DNA from: Candidatus Liberimonas magnetica
GTDB taxonomy: Bacteria; Elusimicrobiota; Endomicrobiia; Endomicrobiales; JAFGIL01
Reading direction: 5' to 3'
NCBI GenBank assembly: GCA_020523885.1
Contig: JAJAPY010000011.1
Span: forward strand, 1-64,000
DNA: 64,000 nucleotides
Shown: positions 5,241 through 56,542 of the stretch, piece after piece
Position numbering within the stretch: the stretch's first letter is position 1
Layout of the letters: each line of letters opens with the position of its first letter
Position numbers and translations under genes: made by a program
The notes under the pieces: model-generated
Databases searched by the model: none
Seen by the model: only the letters and a program-made list of their open reading frames with translations
What the model was told of the DNA's origin: nothing

Positions 5241-5249
5241 CGTACAATT

Positions 5250-5358
5250 ATAGCGTACAGCGGATAGCGTAGAGCGTATAGGAAAGTCAAAGATTTTAAC
5301 TATCCGCTAAACGCTCTACGCTAAACGCTAAAAATAATACTATCCGTTTTACGCTGAA
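5250..5358 (+). repeat. Heptad hairpin, TAGCGNN family (lysA/dapF spacer)
   Basis: Arms at 5251-5280 and 5301-5330 are imperfect reverse complements, each built from 7-base words around TAGCG/CGCTA, with a 20-base loop. A further partial word run follows to 5355. The element fills nearly the whole spacer up to the dapF start codon. Read in reverse, about 48 bases of arm, loop and arm match the element at 25398-25476. Confidence 0.85.
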
Positions 5359-5359
5359 C

Positions 5360-6187
5360 ATGAATAAGAAAATTGACTTTTATAAAATCTCTGCAGCAGG
5401 TAATGATTTCATAATGATCGATAACAGAAAAAAGGTTTTGTCCGGAGACCTATCTTCTTTAGCAAAGCGTTTATGCCAGAGAAAGCTCTCGATCGGGGCT
5501 GACGGGCTTATCCTGATAGAAAAAAGCAAAAAAGCAGATTTTAAAATGTGTTATTATAATTCCGATGGCTCTCATGCGGCGATGTGCGGGAACGGCGGCC
5601 GTTCCATAGCCCGTTTTGCGAACCTGCTCGGCATAACCTCAAAAAAAATGGCATTTGAAACGGATGCGGGGCTCGTAAATGCCGAGATCTTAAAAAACAA
5701 TATAAGGCTTGAACTGTACGAACCGAAAGATGTCCGGCTTGATTTCCCTTTAAAGGTAGGCGAAAAAGAGTTTGATGTTTCATTTATAGATACAGGAGTC
5801 CCCCACACCGTAGTTGCAGTAAGTAATATAGATAAAATAGACGTATGCGGTCTGGGGCAGATGATAAGGTATCATAAGGAATTTTCGCCTGCAGGCACGA
5901 ACGTGGATTTTATCCAGAAGAAAAACGAGAACACCATATATGTAAGGACTTATGAACGCGGGGTTGAAGACGAAACGCTCGCCTGCGGTACAGGAGTAGT
6001 GGCAAGTGCGATAATCGCCAGTATGAAAAAACTCGTAAAAGAACCGGTTCACTGCATTACGCGGGGCGGAGATACGTTATATGTTTCGTTCACGCTGAAT
6101 ACCGAAGACGATTTTATTTCTCCGGTCTCGAATGTCCATCTTGAAGGCCCGGCGGAAGTTACGTTTACGGGGAGTGTAAATATCTGA
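5360..6187 (+). CDS. dapF: Diaminopimelate epimerase
   Basis: A 275-residue enzyme that converts LL- to meso-diaminopimelate with two catalytic cysteines. Both are present: C76 in AAMCGNGGRS and C209 in LACGTG. The DapF hallmarks SAAGNDFIMID near the N terminus and the two mirrored domains are intact, and length is normal. It is required here because DapL makes the LL form while LysA uses the meso form. The start codon directly abuts the TAGCG-word repeat, so no clear purine-rich ribosome site is left; translation may depend on the repeat sequence itself. Confidence 0.96.
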   Translation: MNKKIDFYKISAAGNDFIMIDNRKKVLSGDLSSLAKRLCQRKLSIGADGLILIEKSKKADFKMCYYNSDGSHAAMCGNGGRSIARFANLLGITSKKMAFETDAGLVNAEILKNNIRLELYEPKDVRLDFPLKVGEKEFDVSFIDTGVPHTVVAVSNIDKIDVCGLGQMIRYHKEFSPAGTNVDFIQKKNENTIYVRTYERGVEDETLACGTGVVASAIIASMKKLVKEPVHCITRGGDTLYVSFTLNTEDDFISPVSNVHLEGPAEVTFTGSVNI

Positions 6188-6280
6188 TTGCAAATTGCAA
6201 ATCGAGAAATTGCAAATTGTAAATTTAATGAATGACATTGAAAATTTGAAATTTGCATTTTGCACTTTGCAATTTTCAAT
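6187..6280 (+). repeat. Heptad hairpin, TTGCAAA family (dapF/dapA spacer)
   Basis: The left arm (6187-6226) repeats TTGCAAA-like words and the right arm (6242-6277) their complement TTTGCAN, with a short AT-rich loop. A related element is at 47318-47422 before gltD. It begins at the dapF stop codon and ends 18 bases before dapA. Confidence 0.8.
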
Positions 6281-6297
6281 TAATTTGTGGAGGAAAA

Positions 6298-8904: not shown

Positions 8905-8997
8905 TAGCGTAGAGCGTTTAGCGGATAGCGTATAGAAAAACCAAAATTACAATTTCTTTTCACTTTACTATACGCTCTACGCTAAACGCTATCCGCT
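8905..8997 (+). repeat. Heptad hairpin, TAGCGNN family (FAH/membrane protein spacer)
   Basis: Left arm 8905-8935, right arm 8968-8997, loop about 32 bases. The 30-base right arm is identical to that of the element at 25447-25476, 16 kb away, while the loop differs. Confidence 0.87.
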
Positions 8998-10564: not shown

Positions 10565-10691
10565 AGACCACAGACTACAGACCGCAGACTTCCGGCTACA
10601 GATTAGAAAATAGAAAATTTTTAGTTTTTGTTTTTCAGTCTGTAGTCTCAAGTCTGTAGTCTGATGTCTAAACATCTGTGGTCTTGAGTCT
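10565..10691 (+). repeat. Heptad hairpin, GTCTGNA family (dapL/folK spacer)
   Basis: Left arm 10565-10604 (CAGACTA/CAGACCG words); right arm 10636-10691 has two blocks of GTCTGTA-type words separated by a few bases. The right arm touches the folK start, leaving no conventional ribosome site. Confidence 0.82.
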
Positions 10692-25397: not shown

Positions 25398-25476
25398 TAG
25401 CGTAGAGCGTACAGCGTTTAGCGGATAGTAAAAGTCTTTGACTTTCCTATACGCTCTACGCTAAACGCTATCCGCT
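25398..25476 (+). repeat. Heptad hairpin, TAGCGNN family (before tolB)
   Basis: Left arm 25398-25428, right arm 25447-25476, loop about 18 bases. The right arm equals that at 8968-8997; arm, loop and arm together match the reverse complement of 5251-5330 over about 48 bases. Confidence 0.87.
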
Positions 25477-25491
25477 AGACTGCAAGGATTC

Positions 25492-30884: not shown

Positions 30885-30957
30885 TAGACAACAGACAACA
30901 GACAGAAGGCATAAAAGCCCTGGTTTTGAGTCTGTGGTCTGAAGTCTCAAGTCTGAT
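30885..30957 (+). repeat. Heptad hairpin, GTCTGNA family (before amt1)
   Basis: Left arm 30885-30908 (CAACAGA-type words), right arm 30928-30957. It lies between the barrel stop and the GGAGG of amt1. Confidence 0.8.
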
Positions 30958-32660: not shown

Positions 32661-32754
32661 ATAGACAGCAGGCCACAGACTACAGACAATAGGCAAATAC
32701 AAAATAAAAACTGGAGTTTTAAAGTCTGTGGTCTGAAGTCTCAAGTCTGATGTT
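32661..32754 (+). repeat. Heptad hairpin, GTCTGNA family (after glnB)
   Basis: Left arm 32661-32688 and right arm 32722-32754; the right arm reads GTCTGTG, GTCTGAA, GTCTCAA, GTCTGAT, the same word order as at 30928-30957. Confidence 0.8.
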
Positions 32755-37392: not shown

Positions 37393-37396
37393 TTAC

Positions 37397-37491
37397 AAGG
37401 TATAAGGGGTAAGTGATAAGGGCTAAGGGAAACCGAAATCTTTGAATTTGCTTATTTTGTTACTTACAACTTACACCTTACCCCTTATCCC
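37397..37491 (+). repeat. Heptad hairpin, NGGTAAG family (amt2/glnA spacer)
   Basis: Left arm 37397-37429: GTATAAG, GGGTAAG, TGATAAG, GGCTAAG at 7-base steps; right arm 37460-37491 with complementary words. The only copy of this word family in the window. It precedes the glnA promoter. Confidence 0.8.
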
Positions 37492-37504
37492 TGATTTAAA
37501 ATAG

Positions 37505-39769: not shown

Positions 39770-39853
39770 TCAGACTACAGACCACAGACGACAGACTACA
39801 GATTGATTGTTATAATTTAGTCTATAGTCTGTAGTCTGAAGTCTTTAATCTGA
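39770..39853 (+). repeat. Heptad hairpin, GTCTGNA family (after glnA)
   Basis: Left arm 39770-39803 (CAGACTA, CAGACCA, CAGACGA, CAGACTA words) and right arm 39818-39853; the last word provides TGAGG before the next start. Confidence 0.85.
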
Positions 39854-39859
39854 GGTTCC

Positions 39860-42478
39860 ATGTCAAAAATATTCACGTTGATGAGCACAGGGCTTCCTGA
39901 GTTAGATAAAGTTATCCAGGGAGTCCAGCCGGGCGATAATATCGTCTGGCAGCTTGATTCCATAGAAGATTATAAGCTTTTTGTCCATCCTTTTTGCAGG
40001 GACGCCTATGATAAAAAGAACAAGCTCATCTATTTCAGGTTCGCCCAGCATGAATCTCTTCTACCCGAAGGCGTCCAGGCCCAGGTTTACGAACTCCATC
40101 CAGAAGACGGTTTTGAGACGTTCATTGCAGAGATATTCAAGGTAATAGAAAAGAATGGGCTGGGCGCATTCTATGTTTTTGACTGCCTTTCCGAGCTTAC
40201 CGTAGACTGGTACTCCGACAGGATGCTCGCCAACTTCTTTATGCTGGCCTGCCCGTACCTTTACGACTACGACACTGCCACGTATTTTGCCCTCTTGAGG
40301 AACCACCACACCACGCAGACCGTAAACGTGATACATAACACAGCGCAGGTGATAATAGACGTTTACCGTAACAAAAAAAGCCTTTACCTCCAGCCGATAA
40401 AAGTTTATAAGCGCCATTCCCATACCATGTATATGCTCCATCACTGGAAAGACGGGAAGTTCCATCCTGAAACAAGAAGCGCGGTAATATCTGAAATACT
40501 TGAAGAAATTTACCACCCGTGGCTTGACATATCCATATCCAGGCAGGATATGTGGCCTCGTATTTTTGCAAAAGCGCGCGAGCTGCAGCAGGAGCTGGCT
40601 AAAAACAGGAAAAACTCAAGAGAAGAAGAAAAGCATTATAACAGGCTCATCAGGATGGTTGTAACAAGGGACGAACCTGTATTAAAGCTTGCTGAAAAAT
40701 ATTTTGACCTTGAAGACCTTATAGATATAGGAAAACATATGGTGGGCACCGGGCTTATCGGAGGAAAAACAGTAGGTATGCTCCTGGCAAGGGCGATACT
40801 GAAGAAATCAAGCCTTGAGTGGCGCGACGTGCTTGAGCCGCATGACAGTTTTTTCATAGGTTCCGATGTGTTCTATACTTATGTCGTTCAGAACGGGTGC
40901 TGGTGGTTCAGGTGGAAACAGAGGTACTCGGATACCGTCCTTGAAGAAACCGAGGAAGCAAGAAAAAGGATGCTCGACGGCAAATTCCCGCAGGATATCG
41001 AAGACCAGTTCAAGGAGATCCTGAATTATTTCGGCCAGTCGCCGATAATAGTACGGTCATCAAGCTTGTTAGAGGACGCCTACGGCAATGCTTTTTCCGG
41101 AAAATATGAAAGTGTGTTCTGTGCCAACCAGGGTACTCCGGAAGACCGTTTAAAGGATTTTACCAATGCCGTAAAAACAGTCTATGCAAGCACCATGAGC
41201 CGTGATGCGCTCACTTACAGGCTTCAAAGAGGGCTCCTTGACAGGGACGAGCAGATGGCGTTACTGGTCCAGCGTGTCTCGGGTTCGATTTGCGGAAATT
41301 TATTTTTTCCGCACGTGGCAGGAGTCGGGTTCTCGTACAACCCTTACGTCTGGAGCAAGGCTATAGATCCTAAAGCAGGAGTGTTGCGCCTGGTGTTGGG
41401 CCTCGGCACAAGGGCGGTAGACCGGTCCGGCGATGATTATACAAGGATAGTAGCGCTAAATGACCCGGTAAAAAAACCGGCGGCGGATTTTGAAGAAGCA
41501 AGGAAATATACGCAGAAAAAAATGGACCTTTTAGACCTTGCCTCGAACAAGCATGTGACCAGGAATATTTCAGAACTCGTAAAAGAAAATATCGAACTTC
41601 CGCTTGAAATGCTTGCCGAACGGGACTTGTCCATGGAAGAAAGGGCAAAGGAAGCAGGCCTGCATGATGTTTTCTCCTGGGTTTTTAATTTTGATAATTT
41701 CCTGTCGAAAACAGATTTCCCCAAAGACATGAACAGGATGCTTTCTACCCTTAATGACGCGTACGATTATCCGGTTGATATAGAATTCACGGCCAATATA
41801 TTCGATGGCAATAAATATAAGGTAAACCTGCTCCAGTGCAGGCCGTTCCAGGTAAAAAAGGAAGTCAGGATCGTAAAAGACCCGGGCAAGATACCTCAGA
41901 AAGACATGATACTTAAGACAAGTGGGCCTATCATAGGCAGCAGCATACAGACTATAATAGACAGGATAATCTATGTTGTGCCTTCGGTCTACGGCAAACT
42001 TCCTGAGAATGAAAGGTACCAGGTCGCAAATGTAATAGGCAAGGTCACAAATTTAGAGAAAAAAGATAAAAAGAAAATAATCATGCTCATCGGGCCCGGC
42101 AGGTGGGGGACAACGACCCCGTCCTTAGGAGTCCCGGTACAGTTCGGGGACATAAACAATGTTTCTGTCCTTTGCGAGATGGCTGAAATGCACGAAGGCC
42201 TTGTGCCCGATGTGTCCTTGGGCACTCATTTTTTTAATGACCTGGTAGAACTGGACATGCTTTACTTGGCTGTCTATCCCCAGCGGGAAGATAATTTTAT
42301 CAATAAAGCATTCCTTGAAAATGCAAATAACCGGCTTTTAAACCTTGTCCCTGAAGCGGGAAAATGGAAAGATGCAGTACGTGTAATAGACCTGGCTGGA
42401 GCAAACAAGGAACAGGTAATATATTTAAATGTAAATTCGACAGAACAAAAGGGTGTATGCTATATAGGGGCAAAATAA
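39860..42478 (+). CDS. PEP/pyruvate-binding dikinase-like protein with KaiC-like N terminus
   Basis: An 872-residue protein. Residues 5-60 look like a RecA/KaiC-type domain (STGLPELDKVIQGVQPGDNI) but the Walker A lysine is absent. The middle holds a PPDK N-terminal ATP-grasp signature around residues 398-420 (VRSSSLLEDAYGNAFSGKYE). The C-terminal part has IGPGRWGTTTPSLGVPV. The phosphohistidine swivel domain and the PEP-binding barrel of PpsA/PPDK are not visible, so it is not a normal PEP synthase. It lies between glnA-III and gltB; a regulatory or phosphotransfer role in nitrogen or carbon metabolism is inference. Confidence 0.7.
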   Translation: MSKIFTLMSTGLPELDKVIQGVQPGDNIVWQLDSIEDYKLFVHPFCRDAYDKKNKLIYFRFAQHESLLPEGVQAQVYELHPEDGFETFIAEIFKVIEKNGLGAFYVFDCLSELTVDWYSDRMLANFFMLACPYLYDYDTATYFALLRNHHTTQTVNVIHNTAQVIIDVYRNKKSLYLQPIKVYKRHSHTMYMLHHWKDGKFHPETRSAVISEILEEIYHPWLDISISRQDMWPRIFAKARELQQELAKNRKNSREEEKHYNRLIRMVVTRDEPVLKLAEKYFDLEDLIDIGKHMVGTGLIGGKTVGMLLARAILKKSSLEWRDVLEPHDSFFIGSDVFYTYVVQNGCWWFRWKQRYSDTVLEETEEARKRMLDGKFPQDIEDQFKEILNYFGQSPIIVRSSSLLEDAYGNAFSGKYESVFCANQGTPEDRLKDFTNAVKTVYASTMSRDALTYRLQRGLLDRDEQMALLVQRVSGSICGNLFFPHVAGVGFSYNPYVWSKAIDPKAGVLRLVLGLGTRAVDRSGDDYTRIVALNDPVKKPAADFEEARKYTQKKMDLLDLASNKHVTRNISELVKENIELPLEMLAERDLSMEERAKEAGLHDVFSWVFNFDNFLSKTDFPKDMNRMLSTLNDAYDYPVDIEFTANIFDGNKYKVNLLQCRPFQVKKEVRIVKDPGKIPQKDMILKTSGPIIGSSIQTIIDRIIYVVPSVYGKLPENERYQVANVIGKVTNLEKKDKKKIIMLIGPGRWGTTTPSLGVPVQFGDINNVSVLCEMAEMHEGLVPDVSLGTHFFNDLVELDMLYLAVYPQREDNFINKAFLENANNRLLNLVPEAGKWKDAVRVIDLAGANKEQVIYLNVNSTEQKGVCYIGAK

Positions 42479-42483
42479 CAGAA

Positions 42484-42763
42484 AGACAGACATGAGACAT
42501 CCGACAGCAGACATCAGACCTCGAACAACCGATTTTGGGTTGAGGGATACTAAAAGATAAATGAAAACACGTATAGAGTTAGCATACAAACTAAATTATA
42601 TAGATTCCGTTAAATTTGAAAAAATAGAAAAATTGTGCGATGACACATCTAAAATGTTATATGGCTTAATTGATTATATTGAAAAAGAATGTTCTCTGTA
42701 GTCTTTAGTCAGAAGTCTGTTGTCTGAGGTCTGTAGTCTGTGGTCGGAAGTCTGTAGTCTGAT
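42484..42763 (+). repeat. Enlarged heptad hairpin (GTCTGNA) carrying an ORF remnant
   Basis: Left arm 42484-42521: words ending in GAC at 7-base steps. Right arm 42694-42763: about nine GTCTGTA-type words. Instead of a loop of 10-30 bases the arms are 170 bases apart and enclose the four-helix-bundle fragment at 42561-42701, whose stop codon lies inside the right arm. A small stem CAACC/GGTTG is at 42525-42540. Confidence 0.8.
42561..42701 (+). pseudogene. Four-helix-bundle (23S intervening-sequence type) protein, C-terminal remnant
   Basis: A 46-residue frame starting MKTRIELAYKLNYI and ending SKMLYGLIDYIEK. This matches the end of the four-helix-bundle/S23 family, whose members (about 115-130 residues) close with the helix pattern KMLxGLIxYL. 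A stop codon sits directly before the ATG and the first two helices are missing, so it is a remnant. In 23S rRNA intervening sequences such ORFs lie inside stem-loops; here the same arrangement is found between protein genes. Confidence 0.65.
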
Positions 42764-42773
42764 AAGGAATAAT

Positions 42774-45700
42774 ATGAACAACTTCGGTTTATACAATAAA
42801 GAATACGAGCATGACAGCTGCGGCGTGGGTTTTGTCGTAAACATAAACGGCAAGGCTTCGTATAACATCGTGTCCGAAGGCATAACTATTTTAAAGAATT
42901 TGGTGCACAGGGGCGCAACGGGCGGAGATCTAAAGACCGGTGACGGGGCAGGTATCCTTGTCCAGATACCGCACGAGTTCTTTTTAAAAGAATCCATGGC
43001 AGCGGGCTTTAGCCTGCCTGACAAGAACGAGTACGGGGCCGGTTTTTTGTTCCTTCCGAAAGAAAAGGTTTTAAGAGAGTCTCTTGAGAATAAAATAAAA
43101 GAGATAATTGTTAAAGAGGGCGGTAATGTGCTCGGCTTCAGGGATGTACCGGTCGACCCGGAATGCCTTGGAGAGATAGCAAGGCGGTCCATGCCTTTTA
43201 TGAAGCAGGTGTTCGTTCAGTTTAAAGGCTTAAAAAACGGCGAGCTTGAGAGGAAACTCTATGTTGTCAGAAAAGTAATAGAAAATTATGTCCTTAGCAA
43301 GAAGATACCTATAGAAGATTTTTATATAGTCAGTTTTTCGTCCCGGGTCATTAATTACAAGGGGATGTTCATCGCCCCTCAGTTCGAGATGTTCTATAAA
43401 GACCTCGGCGATAAAGATTTCCAGAGCTCGATGGCCCTGGTGCACCAGAGGTACAGCACGAATACATTCCCTTCCTGGCCTTTAGCCCAGCCTTTCAGGT
43501 ACATAGCGCATAACGGAGAGATAAACACAATCCGCGGCAATATCAATAAAATGAAAGCCCGTGAATCGACCCTGTCAAGCGTTCTTTTCGGAAGCGATAT
43601 AAAGAAACTATTCCCGATAATAGAGGCTAACGGAAGCGATTCTTCGATGTTCGACAACGCGCTCGAACTTTTGGTTTTAAGCGGAAGGACCTTGGAGCAT
43701 TCCCTCATGATGATGGTGCCTGAAGCTTTCGGTACGAAATACCATATAAGCGAGGATAAACGCGCTTTTTACGAGTACCACGCAGCCATGATGGAACCCT
43801 GGGACGGGCCTGCAGCCATAGCGTTTTGCGACGGGACCAAGATAGGAGCGGTGCTTGACAGGAACGGGCTCAGGCCTGCAAGGTATGTTATAACAAAATC
43901 CGGAAAAGTAGTGCTTGCGTCTGAAATGGGGGTCCTGGATATCCCTGTCGAAGATGTACTGGAAAAAGGCAGACTTGCCCCGGGCAAAATGATCTTAGTC
44001 GACACCTTAAACGCAAAGGTAACAAAAGACAATGACATAAAATCAATGATATCAAGGCAGAAAATGTACAGACGCTGGCTGGAAGAAAACCGGATAGAGT
44101 TAAGGGGATTGTTCCAGCTGCCAGGCCCGGTAAGCGTTGATAAAGCGTCTATAACAACAAAACAAAAACTCTTCGGGTATACAGTGGAAGACCTGAATAT
44201 CATTCTTACACCTATGGCGGAAAATGCTCAGGAACCGATAGGTTCCATGGGGGATGACGAAGCCCCTGCTGTATTGTCAGAGAGGCCGCAGCTTTTGTTC
44301 AGGTATTTCAAGCAGCTTTTTGCCCAGGTGACGAACCCGCCCATTGACCCGTACAGGGAAAACCAGGTGATGTCTCTTATGAGCTTTACAGGGAGGGAAA
44401 GGAACCTTCTTGAAGAAACCCCGCTTCACTGCCACCAGTTAAAACTTTCTCACCCTATACTTACGAACGAGGACGTTGAAAAATTAAAAAAAGCCAAGGT
44501 AAAGGATTTCAAGACAGCGGTTGTCCCGATGGTGTTTAAACTAAAATCCGGAAAGGCCGGCCTTGAAAAAGCGGTAGCAGGCCTTTGCAAAGCAGTTGAA
44601 GATAATATTGACGGAGGATGTTCCATAGTCATAGTGAGCGACAGGTTCGCAGACAAGGATAATGTGCCTATACCGTCTCTTTTGGCGGTTTCAAGCATAA
44701 ATAACTGTCTTATAAACAAGGGAAAAAGGCACCTTTCAGGTATTGTAATAGAAACAGGGGAAGCAAAAGAGGTAATGGATTTTGCTACGCTTATCGGGTT
44801 TGGCGCAAGCGCCGTAAACCCCTACCTGGCGTTTGAGACTATAGCCCAGCTAAAAGACAGCGGTAAGATATCGGATGCCATAAAACTTGAAACCGCGATA
44901 GATAATTACATCCTGGCGCTTAAAAAAGGGCTCCTTAAAATAATGTCCAAGATGGGTATATCCACTATCCGCAGTTATAAAGGCGCGCAGATATTTGAAG
45001 CGATAGGCCTGGACTCTGATTTTGTAAATAAATATTTTACAGGCATAGCGTCCCGTATAGAAGGGGTGGGGCTTGAGGTGATCGCCCAAGAATCGATCTT
45101 GAGGCACAGGTCGGCCTACTCGGAAAATATTAAGGAGAATTCTATCCTTGATTCAGGCGGCAGGTATAATTACAGGCGTTTTTCCCAGAAGCACCTGCTC
45201 TCTCCGGAAACCGTGGTACTCTTACAGAAAGCTGTAAGGGAAGCAAGTTACGAGACATACAAAAAATACGCTCAGACCATAAATGACCAGTCAAAGAACC
45301 TATGTACCCTAAGGGGTTTATTTAAATTTAAGAAATCCAAGCCCGTAAATATAGATGAAGTGGAAAGTGTTGATTCTATAGTAAAAAGGTTCGTTACTTC
45401 GGCGATGTCCTTCGGCAGTATCAGCAAAGAAGCTCATGAGACCCTGGCTATAGCGATGAATAGGCTTGGCGCAGGGTCAAATTCCGGAGAAGGCGGAGAG
45501 GACGAAGAACGTTATATTTCACTTGCCAATGGCGATTCAAAAATGAGCAAGATAAAACAGGTTGCCTCAGGCAGGTTTGGAGTCAACTCCAACTATCTGG
45601 TACATTCAAAAGAACTGCAGATAAAAATGGCGCAGGGCGCAAAACCAGGGGAAGGCGGCCAGCTCCCGGGCCACAAAGTCAACCAGATAATAGCAAAGGT

Positions 45701-47309
45701 AAGGCATTCAACGCCCGGTGTAATGCTTATTTCGCCGCCTCCGCACCACGATATTTATTCAATAGAGGACCTGGCCCAGCTTATCTATGATCTAAAAAAT
45801 GCTAATCCTGAGGCAAGGGTCTCGGTAAAACTGGTAAGCGAAATCGGCGTGGGCACAGTTGCGGCAGGTGTTGCCAAAGGAAAAGCCGATATGGTCTTGA
45901 TCTCCGGCGGCGACGGCGGCACAGGAGCTTCCCCTTTATCTTCCATAAAAGGCACAGGAATTCCCTGGGAGATCGGGCTTTCAGAAACACAGCAAACGCT
46001 CGTTTTAAATAAATTGAGGAACAGGATAAGGGTTCAGGTTGACGGCCAGCTAAGGACAGGGAGGGATATTGTGATCGGAGCTCTATTGGGAGCTGAAGAG
46101 TTCGGTTTTGGCACTATAGCCCTTGTCACCCTTGGATGCATTATGATGAGGAAATGCCATTTGAACACCTGCCCGGTAGGAGTGGCGACCCAGGATGAAA
46201 CTTTAAGGAAAAGGTTTAGCGGAAAACCGGAACACGTTATAAATTTCATGAGGTTTGTGGCACAGGAAGCGCGGGAAATAATGGCAGAGCTCGGGTTTAA
46301 GACTTTCGATGAAATGATAGGCCAGGTTGACAGGCTTGAAACAAATAACGCCATAGAACATTACAAGGCGAAAGGCCTTGATTTTTCAAAAGTATTTACT
46401 AAATCAGTCGTCAAGGACCTGGAAGGCTCCTACCATTGCACAAAAACCCAGGAGATAGATCTTTCGCTTGCTCTTGACCCGGAAATAATAGAAAAAGCCA
46501 AAGACGGCCTTGATAACAAGAAACCCGTTGTGTTGTTCGCCCAGATAAGGAACAGCAACAGGACCGTAGGCACAATGCTCAGCGCTGAGGTATCAAAACG
46601 GTATGGTTCCGGAGGTTTGCCTGAAGACACGATTAAATGCAAGTTCACCGGTGTGGCAGGCCAGAGTTTCGGAGCATTTTTAGCCAAAGGCATAACTTTT
46701 GAACTTGAAGGCGATGCTAACGATTATTTGGGAAAGGGACTATCCGGCGGAAAGATAATACTTTATCCTAACAAGAAATCAACTTACCGGGCACATAACA
46801 ATATTATTACCGGCAACGTGACTCTTTTCGGAGCGACTGAAGGCGAGGTGTATATCCAGGGTATGGCGGGCGAACGGTTTGCAGTCAGGAATTCCGGTGC
46901 TCTAGCTGTGGTTGAAGGTGTCGGCGACCACGGCTGTGAATACATGACAGGTGGAAGGGTGATAGTGCTTGGTAGGACAGGGATAAACTTTGCCGCCGGG
47001 ATGTCCGGCGGGATAGCGTATGTGCTTGACGAGGACCAGCTCTTTGATACGAAGTGCAACCTTGAAATGGTCGACCTAGAACCTGTCAAGAACGATACAG
47101 ACAAGGCCTTCCTGTATGAATACATAAAAAAACATATTGAATATACCGACAGCCAGTACGCCGCAAAGATAATCCACGACTGGGAAGAAATAGTACCTAA
47201 ATTTGTGAAAGTCTTCCCGATAGATTACAAGAAAGCCCTGGAACGTATACAGGTCTCGGATTACAAGGGCTCAGAGACCGTGTCAATGACGGAAGAAGTC
47301 TTTAGTTAA
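42774..47309 (+). CDS. gltB: Glutamate synthase, large subunit
   Basis: A 1511-residue enzyme. C16 in EYEHDSCGVGFV is the N-terminal nucleophile after a short propeptide; the class II glutaminase domain, central domain, FMN barrel (SGEGGEDEERY, ISGGDGGTGASPLSS) and C-terminal GXGXG helix follow. The [3Fe-4S] cysteines are in CIMMRKCHLNTCPVG near residue 1122. It converts glutamine plus 2-oxoglutarate to two glutamates. AAGGAA precedes ATG 42774; the longer frame from 42720 translates the repeat and is rejected. gltD follows. Confidence 0.97.
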   Translation: MNNFGLYNKEYEHDSCGVGFVVNINGKASYNIVSEGITILKNLVHRGATGGDLKTGDGAGILVQIPHEFFLKESMAAGFSLPDKNEYGAGFLFLPKEKVLRESLENKIKEIIVKEGGNVLGFRDVPVDPECLGEIARRSMPFMKQVFVQFKGLKNGELERKLYVVRKVIENYVLSKKIPIEDFYIVSFSSRVINYKGMFIAPQFEMFYKDLGDKDFQSSMALVHQRYSTNTFPSWPLAQPFRYIAHNGEINTIRGNINKMKARESTLSSVLFGSDIKKLFPIIEANGSDSSMFDNALELLVLSGRTLEHSLMMMVPEAFGTKYHISEDKRAFYEYHAAMMEPWDGPAAIAFCDGTKIGAVLDRNGLRPARYVITKSGKVVLASEMGVLDIPVEDVLEKGRLAPGKMILVDTLNAKVTKDNDIKSMISRQKMYRRWLEENRIELRGLFQLPGPVSVDKASITTKQKLFGYTVEDLNIILTPMAENAQEPIGSMGDDEAPAVLSERPQLLFRYFKQLFAQVTNPPIDPYRENQVMSLMSFTGRERNLLEETPLHCHQLKLSHPILTNEDVEKLKKAKVKDFKTAVVPMVFKLKSGKAGLEKAVAGLCKAVEDNIDGGCSIVIVSDRFADKDNVPIPSLLAVSSINNCLINKGKRHLSGIVIETGEAKEVMDFATLIGFGASAVNPYLAFETIAQLKDSGKISDAIKLETAIDNYILALKKGLLKIMSKMGISTIRSYKGAQIFEAIGLDSDFVNKYFTGIASRIEGVGLEVIAQESILRHRSAYSENIKENSILDSGGRYNYRRFSQKHLLSPETVVLLQKAVREASYETYKKYAQTINDQSKNLCTLRGLFKFKKSKPVNIDEVESVDSIVKRFVTSAMSFGSISKEAHETLAIAMNRLGAGSNSGEGGEDEERYISLANGDSKMSKIKQVASGRFGVNSNYLVHSKELQIKMAQGAKPGEGGQLPGHKVNQIIAKVRHSTPGVMLISPPPHHDIYSIEDLAQLIYDLKNANPEARVSVKLVSEIGVGTVAAGVAKGKADMVLISGGDGGTGASPLSSIKGTGIPWEIGLSETQQTLVLNKLRNRIRVQVDGQLRTGRDIVIGALLGAEEFGFGTIALVTLGCIMMRKCHLNTCPVGVATQDETLRKRFSGKPEHVINFMRFVAQEAREIMAELGFKTFDEMIGQVDRLETNNAIEHYKAKGLDFSKVFTKSVVKDLEGSYHCTKTQEIDLSLALDPEIIEKAKDGLDNKKPVVLFAQIRNSNRTVGTMLSAEVSKRYGSGGLPEDTIKCKFTGVAGQSFGAFLAKGITFELEGDANDYLGKGLSGGKIILYPNKKSTYRAHNNIITGNVTLFGATEGEVYIQGMAGERFAVRNSGALAVVEGVGDHGCEYMTGGRVIVLGRTGINFAAGMSGGIAYVLDEDQLFDTKCNLEMVDLEPVKNDTDKAFLYEYIKKHIEYTDSQYAAKIIHDWEEIVPKFVKVFPIDYKKALERIQVSDYKGSETVSMTEEVFS

Positions 47310-56200: not shown

Positions 56201-56432
56201 GGGAAATGAAGAAGTCCTTGAGCGCATAAAGAAAGGCGAGATAAAGCTTATCATTAACACCCCGAGCGGAAGGCGGGGCCAGTTTGACATGAGGCCTATA
56301 AGAAGCCTTTCTGCCCAGAACGGCATCCCCTGCATTACGACCATCCAGGGTGCCCAGGCAGCAGTGAACGGAATAGAAGCGATAATGAGCGGAAAACTTA
56401 AAGTAAAGCCGATACAAGAATATATTAAATAG
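53220..56432 (+). CDS. carB: Carbamoyl-phosphate synthase, large subunit
   Basis: A 1070-residue protein with GTG start. It has two homologous ATP-grasp halves ([20 protein letters not shown] near 10 and [20 protein letters not shown] near 560), phosphate-binding [12 protein letters not shown] and SYVLGGRSM, and the C-terminal MGS-like allosteric domain. It makes carbamoyl phosphate for pyrimidines and arginine. A GAGAAG ribosome site is inside the end of carA, and the overlap implies translational coupling. Confidence 0.97.
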
Positions 56433-56528
56433 ACATCAGACTACAGACCGCAGACTATAGACTAACTTCAAAAACGAATCTGTTATTATGTGGTTTTTAG
56501 TCTGTAGTCTGTGGTCTATAGTCTGCAG
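56431..56528 (+). repeat. Heptad hairpin, GTCTGNA family (carB/purF spacer)
   Basis: Left arm 56431-56463 (CAGACTA, CAGACCG, CAGACTA words) and right arm 56496-56528 (GTCTGTA, GTCTGTG, GTCTATA, GTCTGCA). It starts at the carB stop and ends three bases before the GGGAG-bearing purF ribosome site. Confidence 0.85.
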
Positions 56529-56542
56529 TTATGGGAGTTATT

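Follow-up and report, generated by a model that had tools for sequence, protein, structure and literature searches.

The locus between a PEP-binding gene and gltB

The stretch analysed here is a 64,000-nt piece (the window) of the genome of Candidatus Liberimonas magnetica (G000 in our labelling; other G numbers are other genomes and L numbers are loci), and our subject is the locus at 42484-42763, where two inverted arrays of a seven-nucleotide word enclose what is probably the end of a gene for a four-helix-bundle protein of the 23S rRNA intervening-sequence protein (IVP) family, PF05635. The initial annotation of this locus had described heptad arms around a 46-codon C-terminal piece of a four-helix-bundle protein, between a phosphoenolpyruvate (PEP)-binding gene and gltB, and it was right about both position and content. 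The locus and its neighbours read as follows.

39860-42478, + strand: upstream neighbour, a putative PEP-binding open reading frame (ORF), PEP synthase/PPDK-like (function from the initial annotation and the sequence), ending 10 nt before the 5' arm
42488-42522, + strand: 5' arm, AGACATG, AGACATC, cGACAGC, AGACATC, AGACctc; five AGAC slots at period 7, slot 3 degenerate
42561-42701, + strand: probable remnant of a four-helix-bundle (23S rRNA IVP) gene, 46 C-terminal codons, first ~68 residues gone
42690-42761, - strand: 3' arm, ~9 heptads GTCTGNN/GTCNGNN (reverse complement AGACNNN)
42774-47309, + strand: downstream neighbour gltB (glutamate synthase large subunit), its ATG 13 nt past the 3' arm

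The 46-residue remnant aligns with positions 69-108 of TIGR02436 (E 1.2e-5, 25.5 bits, cut-off 24) and with positions 73-106 of PF05635 (E 2.2e-4, 21.8 bits, under the Pfam cut-off of 33.8). Only late profile positions are matched, which means that the C-terminal third is present without the N-terminus; with the first two thirds of its gene gone, the window copy is dead. Its last codons overlap the inner end of the 3' arm, and the mechanical ORF of gltB (42720-47309) also starts inside that arm, upstream of the ATG at 42774. The copy lies between two protein genes and not inside a 23S rRNA helix.

Positions 42487-42535 and 42713-42761 form a 49-nt inverted repeat that is 76% complementary. The arms are no single exact inverted repeat; what they have in common is the repeated word (five slots on the 5' side, about nine on the 3' side). 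Folding of the stretch gave z = -2.99, with 0 shuffles equally good. Heptad periodicity extends well beyond this locus: 28 period-7 arrays are found in the window, where every neighbouring period has 0-5, and 153 in a 0.85-Mb sample (about a quarter of the genome, from which all genome-wide hairpin and array counts below are taken), against 4 in block shuffles. Other periods tested in that sample gave 1-19 arrays, except for period 14, whose 97 arrays are explained by its being twice seven. In the AGAC hairpins of the window (for example 39771-39851 and 42488-42761) there is a systematic difference between the arms at base five of the unit: this base is often A or C in the 5' arm, and the reverse complement of the 3' arm has T there. 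The hairpins thereby acquire A:A and C:A mismatches as well as a direction.

Full-length IVP genes lie between short-period inverted arms

Six other PF05635 genes (five intact, one with a stop) score above the curated cut-off in the window's genome, and by inspection all six have inverted period-7 arms, with one word each: TAAGCTG, ATGAGTT, CAGTGAC, GAAGGAT, CAATTAA and TGCAAAG. Across the phylum, PF05635 genes are present in 65 of 294 Elusimicrobiota genomes. Our phylum set comprised 107 full-length IVP genes with their flanks, largely from metagenome-assembled genomes in which contig breaks hide some arms, and not all of its loci are independent of one another. In 72% of these loci the upstream and downstream flanks were more complementary than the 99th percentile of a mispaired-arm null, and periodic arms were detected in 89 of the 107, compared with 14 of 107 for far flanks 450-700 bp away. 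The initial annotation had named full-length genes lacking heptad arms as the outcome that would count against its element; what was found, in its own genome and in the phylum, is short-period arms around most such genes. A cross-phylum set gave a similar picture, with periodic arms in 52 of 67 loci and in 7 of 67 far flanks.

The period in the phylum set was 7 (or its double, 14) in 50 loci and 8 in 34; others, including 9-10, are rare. Mapped on the protein tree, periods 7 and 8 changed 14 times, versus 26.6 when shuffled (0/500), and this clustering indicates that period 8 is a genuine alternative and not noise. The expectation that full-length genes would be flanked by heptads of the same word family thus held for the arms and failed for the word: each clade has its own, at period 7, 8 or rarely 9-10, and a single GTCTGNA word shared by all IVP arms was ruled out, since words differ by protein clade.

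Between the arms lies one IVP-family ORF, and intact elements measure ~430-620 bp (median 493), which reproduces the 0.4-0.5 kb anatomy of a 23S rRNA intervening sequence (IVS). None of the 15 IVP loci scanned matched large-subunit rRNA. Four Flavobacteriales loci (L209, L211, L218, L237), suspected from their long conserved flanks of lying in 23S rRNA, gave no rRNA match, and that location was rejected. No match to IVP was found in phage records. IVP genes of cyanobacterial plasmids, some of them between cas genes, mostly have periodic arms. Two loci from cultured cyanobacteria represent different word clades: L313 (Nostoc sp. ATCC 53789, pNsp_a) belongs to the AGTCAGA clade and L315 (Calothrix brevissima NIES-22) to the GGGTGTA clade. 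At L311 (Pseudanabaena galeata plasmid pPg_01, between cas6 and cas4) the arrays are long, AAAAGCT and AAAAGCC, and stand in the same orientation instead of being inverted.

The arm word follows the protein

Upstream and downstream arms of one locus share on average 5.8 of 7 word positions, compared with 3.6 between loci. Words are also shared between genomes along the lines of protein relationship: close IVP relatives in different genomes have word similarities of 5.17 versus 4.03 at period 7 and 5.90 versus 4.58 at period 8 (0/2000 permutations in each case, with trees of ~105 columns). Examples are AGTAATG (L089/L114), GCCATAT (L099/L105), CAAGTC (L096, L108, L090 and L103) and GGTGATAT (L085b/L121). 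Pairs at different sites (L074/L078, L085b/L121, L096/L108) have almost no similarity outside the arms, so that they are alike almost only from arm to arm, which identifies arm, gene and arm together as the unit. Orthologous insertions were seen instead for L120/L127 and L009/L018.

The same logic places the window remnant. Of all the IVPs collected, the three relatives that score best are L052 (whose arms, judged by eye, have period 9), L068 (AGACCAA) and L112 (AGACAAG). Only 3 of 101 word-bearing loci have an AGAC word, and two of them stand in this top three (p ~0.002, hypergeometric); the remnant therefore sits in the arms expected of its own clade. It is a relic of the AGAC clade, and no other trace of the AGAC-word protein was found in this genome.

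Insertion, decay and gene-less hairpins

The gap between dnaK and grpE, in one genus of the same order, presents the element in several states. An IVP element fills it in G031 and G036, the element of G041 is decayed (much of the gene deleted, the same type of wreck as the window copy), and in G057, G011 and G180 the gap is empty. Filled and empty alleles differ by arms and gene together, so that this one site provides both the empty and the filled alleles by which a mobile element is recognised.

Gene-less copies of the arms are abundant in some of these genomes. Matches to the arm word number 362 in G036 (8 for a reversed-pattern control) and 110 in G159 (control 16), while most sister species are near control. 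Eight of 12 hairpins fetched from G036 carry the 15-mer AAGTTTAAGGTAAAA (at most 2 mismatches) just inside the arm, and it occurs in the same subterminal position in the intact element; this common sequence shows descent, beyond mere likeness of words. The window itself contains the following gene-less hairpins (no strand assigned).

5249-5332: word AGCGNNN; cognate IVP genes in relatives (L033, L043)
6187-6281: word TGCAAAN; corresponds to L014, a broken IVP gene in the same genome
8066-8135: AGAC hairpin, period-7 array scan
8906-8997: word AGCGNNN, period-7 array scan
10565-10669: AGAC hairpin, period-7 array scan
25399-25477: word AGCGNNN, period-7 array scan
30886-30954: AGAC hairpin, period-7 array scan
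32669-32753: AGAC hairpin, period-7 array scan
37394-37495: word TAAGGNN; cognate IVP genes in relatives (L018, L042)
39771-39851: AGAC hairpin just before the PEP-binding ORF, with the same AGAC word as the remnant's arms
56431-56529: AGAC hairpin, period-7 array scan

In the sampled quarter of the window's genome the commonest hairpin families are TGCAAAN (19), AGAC (18) and AGCG (13), for which the cognate IVP gene is broken, reduced to a remnant or not found; the intact IVP genes have few hairpins. In general there is good support for the proposal of the initial annotation that heptad hairpins are non-autonomous forms of an IVP element: the arms accompany the gene from site to site, insertion and decay of the unit are both seen, and the G036 hairpins carry the subterminal 15-mer. 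Its narrower suggestion, that the window remnant is the parent of the empty hairpins, was not borne out as direct parenthood: the remnant belongs to the AGAC clade, but it and the AGAC hairpins of this genome had no common subterminal sequence.

AGAC hairpins are densest at C21:97-14968 of this genome (L168), with at least 8 in 15 kb, far above their density elsewhere. TGCAAAN gene-less hairpins (contigs C1 and C2; for example L129:15410-15535 and L160:648-775) have a ~57-nt loop containing two small hairpins, whose stems vary on both sides between copies (CCCGC/GCGGG, CCGC/GCGG, CGC/GCG). Such both-sided changes, seen by eye in the sequences, suggest selection on structure; an RNAalifold consensus of the loops retained 4 pairs only, because the alignment shifts the small hairpins.

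Some gaps appear to have been entered repeatedly. The tRNA-Cys/tRNA-Val gap holds IVP elements in three genomes (L013 in G000, L017 in G001, L019 in G002); those of G001 and G002 are related, and that of G000 has a different clade and word, so the site was seemingly used more than once. L011, L039 and L114 also adjoin tRNA genes. Apparently the same gap upstream of gltX (glutamyl-tRNA synthetase) holds two IVP clades and words in different families, GTTCTTN at period 8 (L120, L127) and AGACCAA at period 7 (L068).

The arms are word arrays with an AG core

The initial annotation had the protein binding or spreading a stem, and the stem as such found no support: no in-register pairing is seen between the spacers of one arm and those of the other, their likeness in hairpins of the window's genome being 0.652 compared with 0.671 for shuffled units. 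An exact RNA or DNA stem was rejected on this ground, and the arms are arrays of a word, not a tuned stem. This result bears on the first alternative to a mobile element, in which the arms form a stem cleaved by RNase III that cuts the insert out of the transcript, insertion into operons being tolerated and the protein incidental. In the Coxiella 23S IVS, RNase III does cut the stem, and tandem heptads stand just before the S23p ORF (PMC4990558). Complementarity at the word level would suffice for a stem, and elements do lie in operon gaps (dnaK-grpE, cas6-cas4, before gltX). A selected stem, however, predicts the in-register pairing that is missing, and requires neither a repeated word nor a word that tracks the protein clade. 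Nor do the hairpins of the window's genome have an excess of G-U over A-C pairs (8 versus 28), although the IVP loci do (55 versus 38); with data sets so contradictory, the wobble bias was not used to assign a strand. Altogether we regard excision from the transcript as unlikely to be what the arms are for.

Read toward the loop or gene, the constant element of the words is an AG core (AG 162, CT 35). Strict AG runs of at least three repeats peak at five in the hairpins of the window's genome (47 of 73), in the period-7 loci of the phylum (31 of 74) and in loci of all phyla (26 of 72). Since ~16 nt suffice for detection, the fall from five to six repeats is no threshold artefact. As for the protein, the IVP structures 2gsc and 2rld have five chains each, and IVP is described as a toroidal homopentamer in PMC4990558, which cites Lin et al. 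2006 for it. The proteins have a conserved motif, QxRRAxxSxxxNIAEG.

A probable mobile element, proposed to be read by a pentamer

Taken together, these observations make it likely that the window locus descends by decay from a small mobile element, consisting of an IVP gene and inverted word arrays and possibly bound by a pentamer. The intact element has one IVP/S23-type four-helix-bundle gene between two inverted arrays of a 7- or 8-nt word; arms and gene insert as one unit in gaps between genes and decay by loss of the gene, leaving gene-less hairpins that in some lineages multiply. The peak of AG runs at five and the homopentameric protein lead us to propose one ring per arm and one AG repeat per subunit, probably on single-stranded RNA or DNA. 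Such binding might mark the nucleic acid of the element, or protect it, until host enzymes re-insert it; in trans, the protein might also act on the gene-less hairpins of its word.

Several points weigh against this explanation. Protein binding, transposition chemistry and protein-driven spread are all inferred, and the element encodes no known transposase or recombinase, the IVP gene being the only one between the arms. Target-site duplications could not be read from the compared alleles, which are only ~80-88% identical, and clear arms were not seen in 18 of the 107 phylum loci. The linkage of word and protein weakens as distance grows, and between phyla it does not reach significance. The peak at five is broad in the IVP loci and weakest at period 8, where runs of three and five are equal (12 each of 41). 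Finally, G031 has an intact IVP gene and few hairpins, while in G036 the word is matched hundreds of times and an in-frame stop interrupts the IVP gene, a contrast indicating that gene and amplification are not simply coupled.

Movement could also depend on machinery encoded elsewhere. IVP might, like Avd, serve as RNA chaperone for the reverse transcriptase of another element: Avd and PF05635 proteins have a common fold and a proposed homology (PMC10053308), and one reverse transcriptase gene is present in G036, where the word is amplified. The window's genome, G014, G031 and G159, all with IVP elements or many hairpins, have none, which rules out a reverse transcriptase in trans as a general requirement and makes retro-mobility of this kind improbable. 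Even less credible is a REPIN-like origin, with gene-less hairpins moved by Y1 (RAYT/IS200) transposases and IVP genes as passengers captured between two arms. Its attraction is that eight Y1_Tnp genes, but no reverse transcriptase, are present in the window's genome, and that gene-less copies contain small inner hairpins; yet 0 of 22 Y1 genes examined were bracketed by matching inverted arrays, G014, G031, G010, G011 and G057 have no Y1 gene although the first three have IVP genes, G159 has an amplified word and no Y1 match over the cut-off, and words track the IVP clade. A Y1 mover was rejected, the Y1 genes being unlinked to arms. The eight Y1 genes of G000 (RAYT-like open frames of ~200-340 aa, for example C4:227424-227756) have no matching heptad arms. 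Host regulatory or terminator-like repeats beside which IVP genes merely insert, an idea drawing on the intergenic position of the hairpins and on the regulatory reading of heptamer arrays (PMC4679880), are largely refuted and barely worth retaining, given that one genome has several words, every one of which goes with an IVP clade across genomes, element edges that coincide with the arms at different sites, and filled and empty alleles that differ by arms and gene together.

Relation to known systems

The closest likeness of the IVP element is to the 23S rRNA IVSs of Salmonella, Leptospira and Coxiella, which have inverted arms around a single ORF for a protein of the S23p/IVP family. The Coxiella IVS is similar in further respects (428-444 nt, tandem GACAGAT heptads in the 5' stem before the ORF, internal ORF deletions; PMC4990558). 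Unlike these IVSs, the present elements lie between protein or tRNA genes and not in rRNA, have many words per genome and multiplying gene-less copies, and have arms that are word arrays rather than a tuned stem. With REPIN-RAYT systems and miniature inverted-repeat transposable elements they share short scattered gene-less hairpins tied to one protein family with an intact copy elsewhere; they differ in having a four-helix-bundle ring instead of a Y1 transposase, arms of tandem words, and Y1 genes unlinked to those arms. Inverted ends made of short tandem repeats are found in eukaryotic foldback transposons, a structural analogy only, as the present element is bacterial, much smaller and has an unrelated protein. 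The proposed principle of recognition resembles that of TRAP, an 11-subunit ring that binds GAG/UAG repeats spaced by 2-3 nt: a symmetric ring would read evenly spaced AG-containing repeats, one per subunit, although the IVP fold is unrelated. Avd of the diversity-generating retroelements has a related four-helix-bundle fold (PMC10053308), while the window's genome has no reverse transcriptase and we saw no template or variable repeat.

Short tandemly repeated repetitive (STRR) heptamers occur in Nostocales. Arrays of TAACTGA and other heptamers have been described in Beggiatoaceae, cyanobacteria and Bacteroidetes as direct repeats upstream of genes (MacGregor 2015, PMC4679880). They have the same unit length of 7, the other strand of TAACTGA (TCAGTTA) has an AG core, and cyanobacteria and Bacteroidota carry IVP arms with words like those of these arrays. 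They are unlike IVP arms in being described as direct repeats, with no link to IVP genes. We found no paper linking IVP genes to heptamer arrays in the open-access full-text literature.

A wider and more tentative proposal, which we hold as possible rather than probable, is that IVP elements are a transposase-less mobile class, in which a pentamer would read five evenly spaced AG-core words per arm, word and period changing with the protein clade, and move the element and its gene-less hairpins by way of host machinery. Members or debris of this class may include the 23S rRNA IVSs as well as the heptamer arrays known from Beggiatoaceae and cyanobacteria. For more than 25 years it has been an open question where 23S rRNA IVSs come from (PMC4990558), and heptamer arrays in several phyla are unexplained (PMC4679880). 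IVP genes in cas loci have been reported as a possible CRISPR association (PMC3936711); the cas-flanked plasmid genes L311 and L314 carry arms of their own and, judged by their sequences, look like insertions, so the link between IVP and arms may explain the presence of IVP genes in CRISPR-cas operons. PF05635 proteins are common and have solved structures and no known function. The link described here suggests for them a concrete DNA or RNA target, the arm word, and a stoichiometry of five repeats to five subunits, and it supplies matched pairs of protein and word from many clades together with a natural series of filled, empty and decayed sites.
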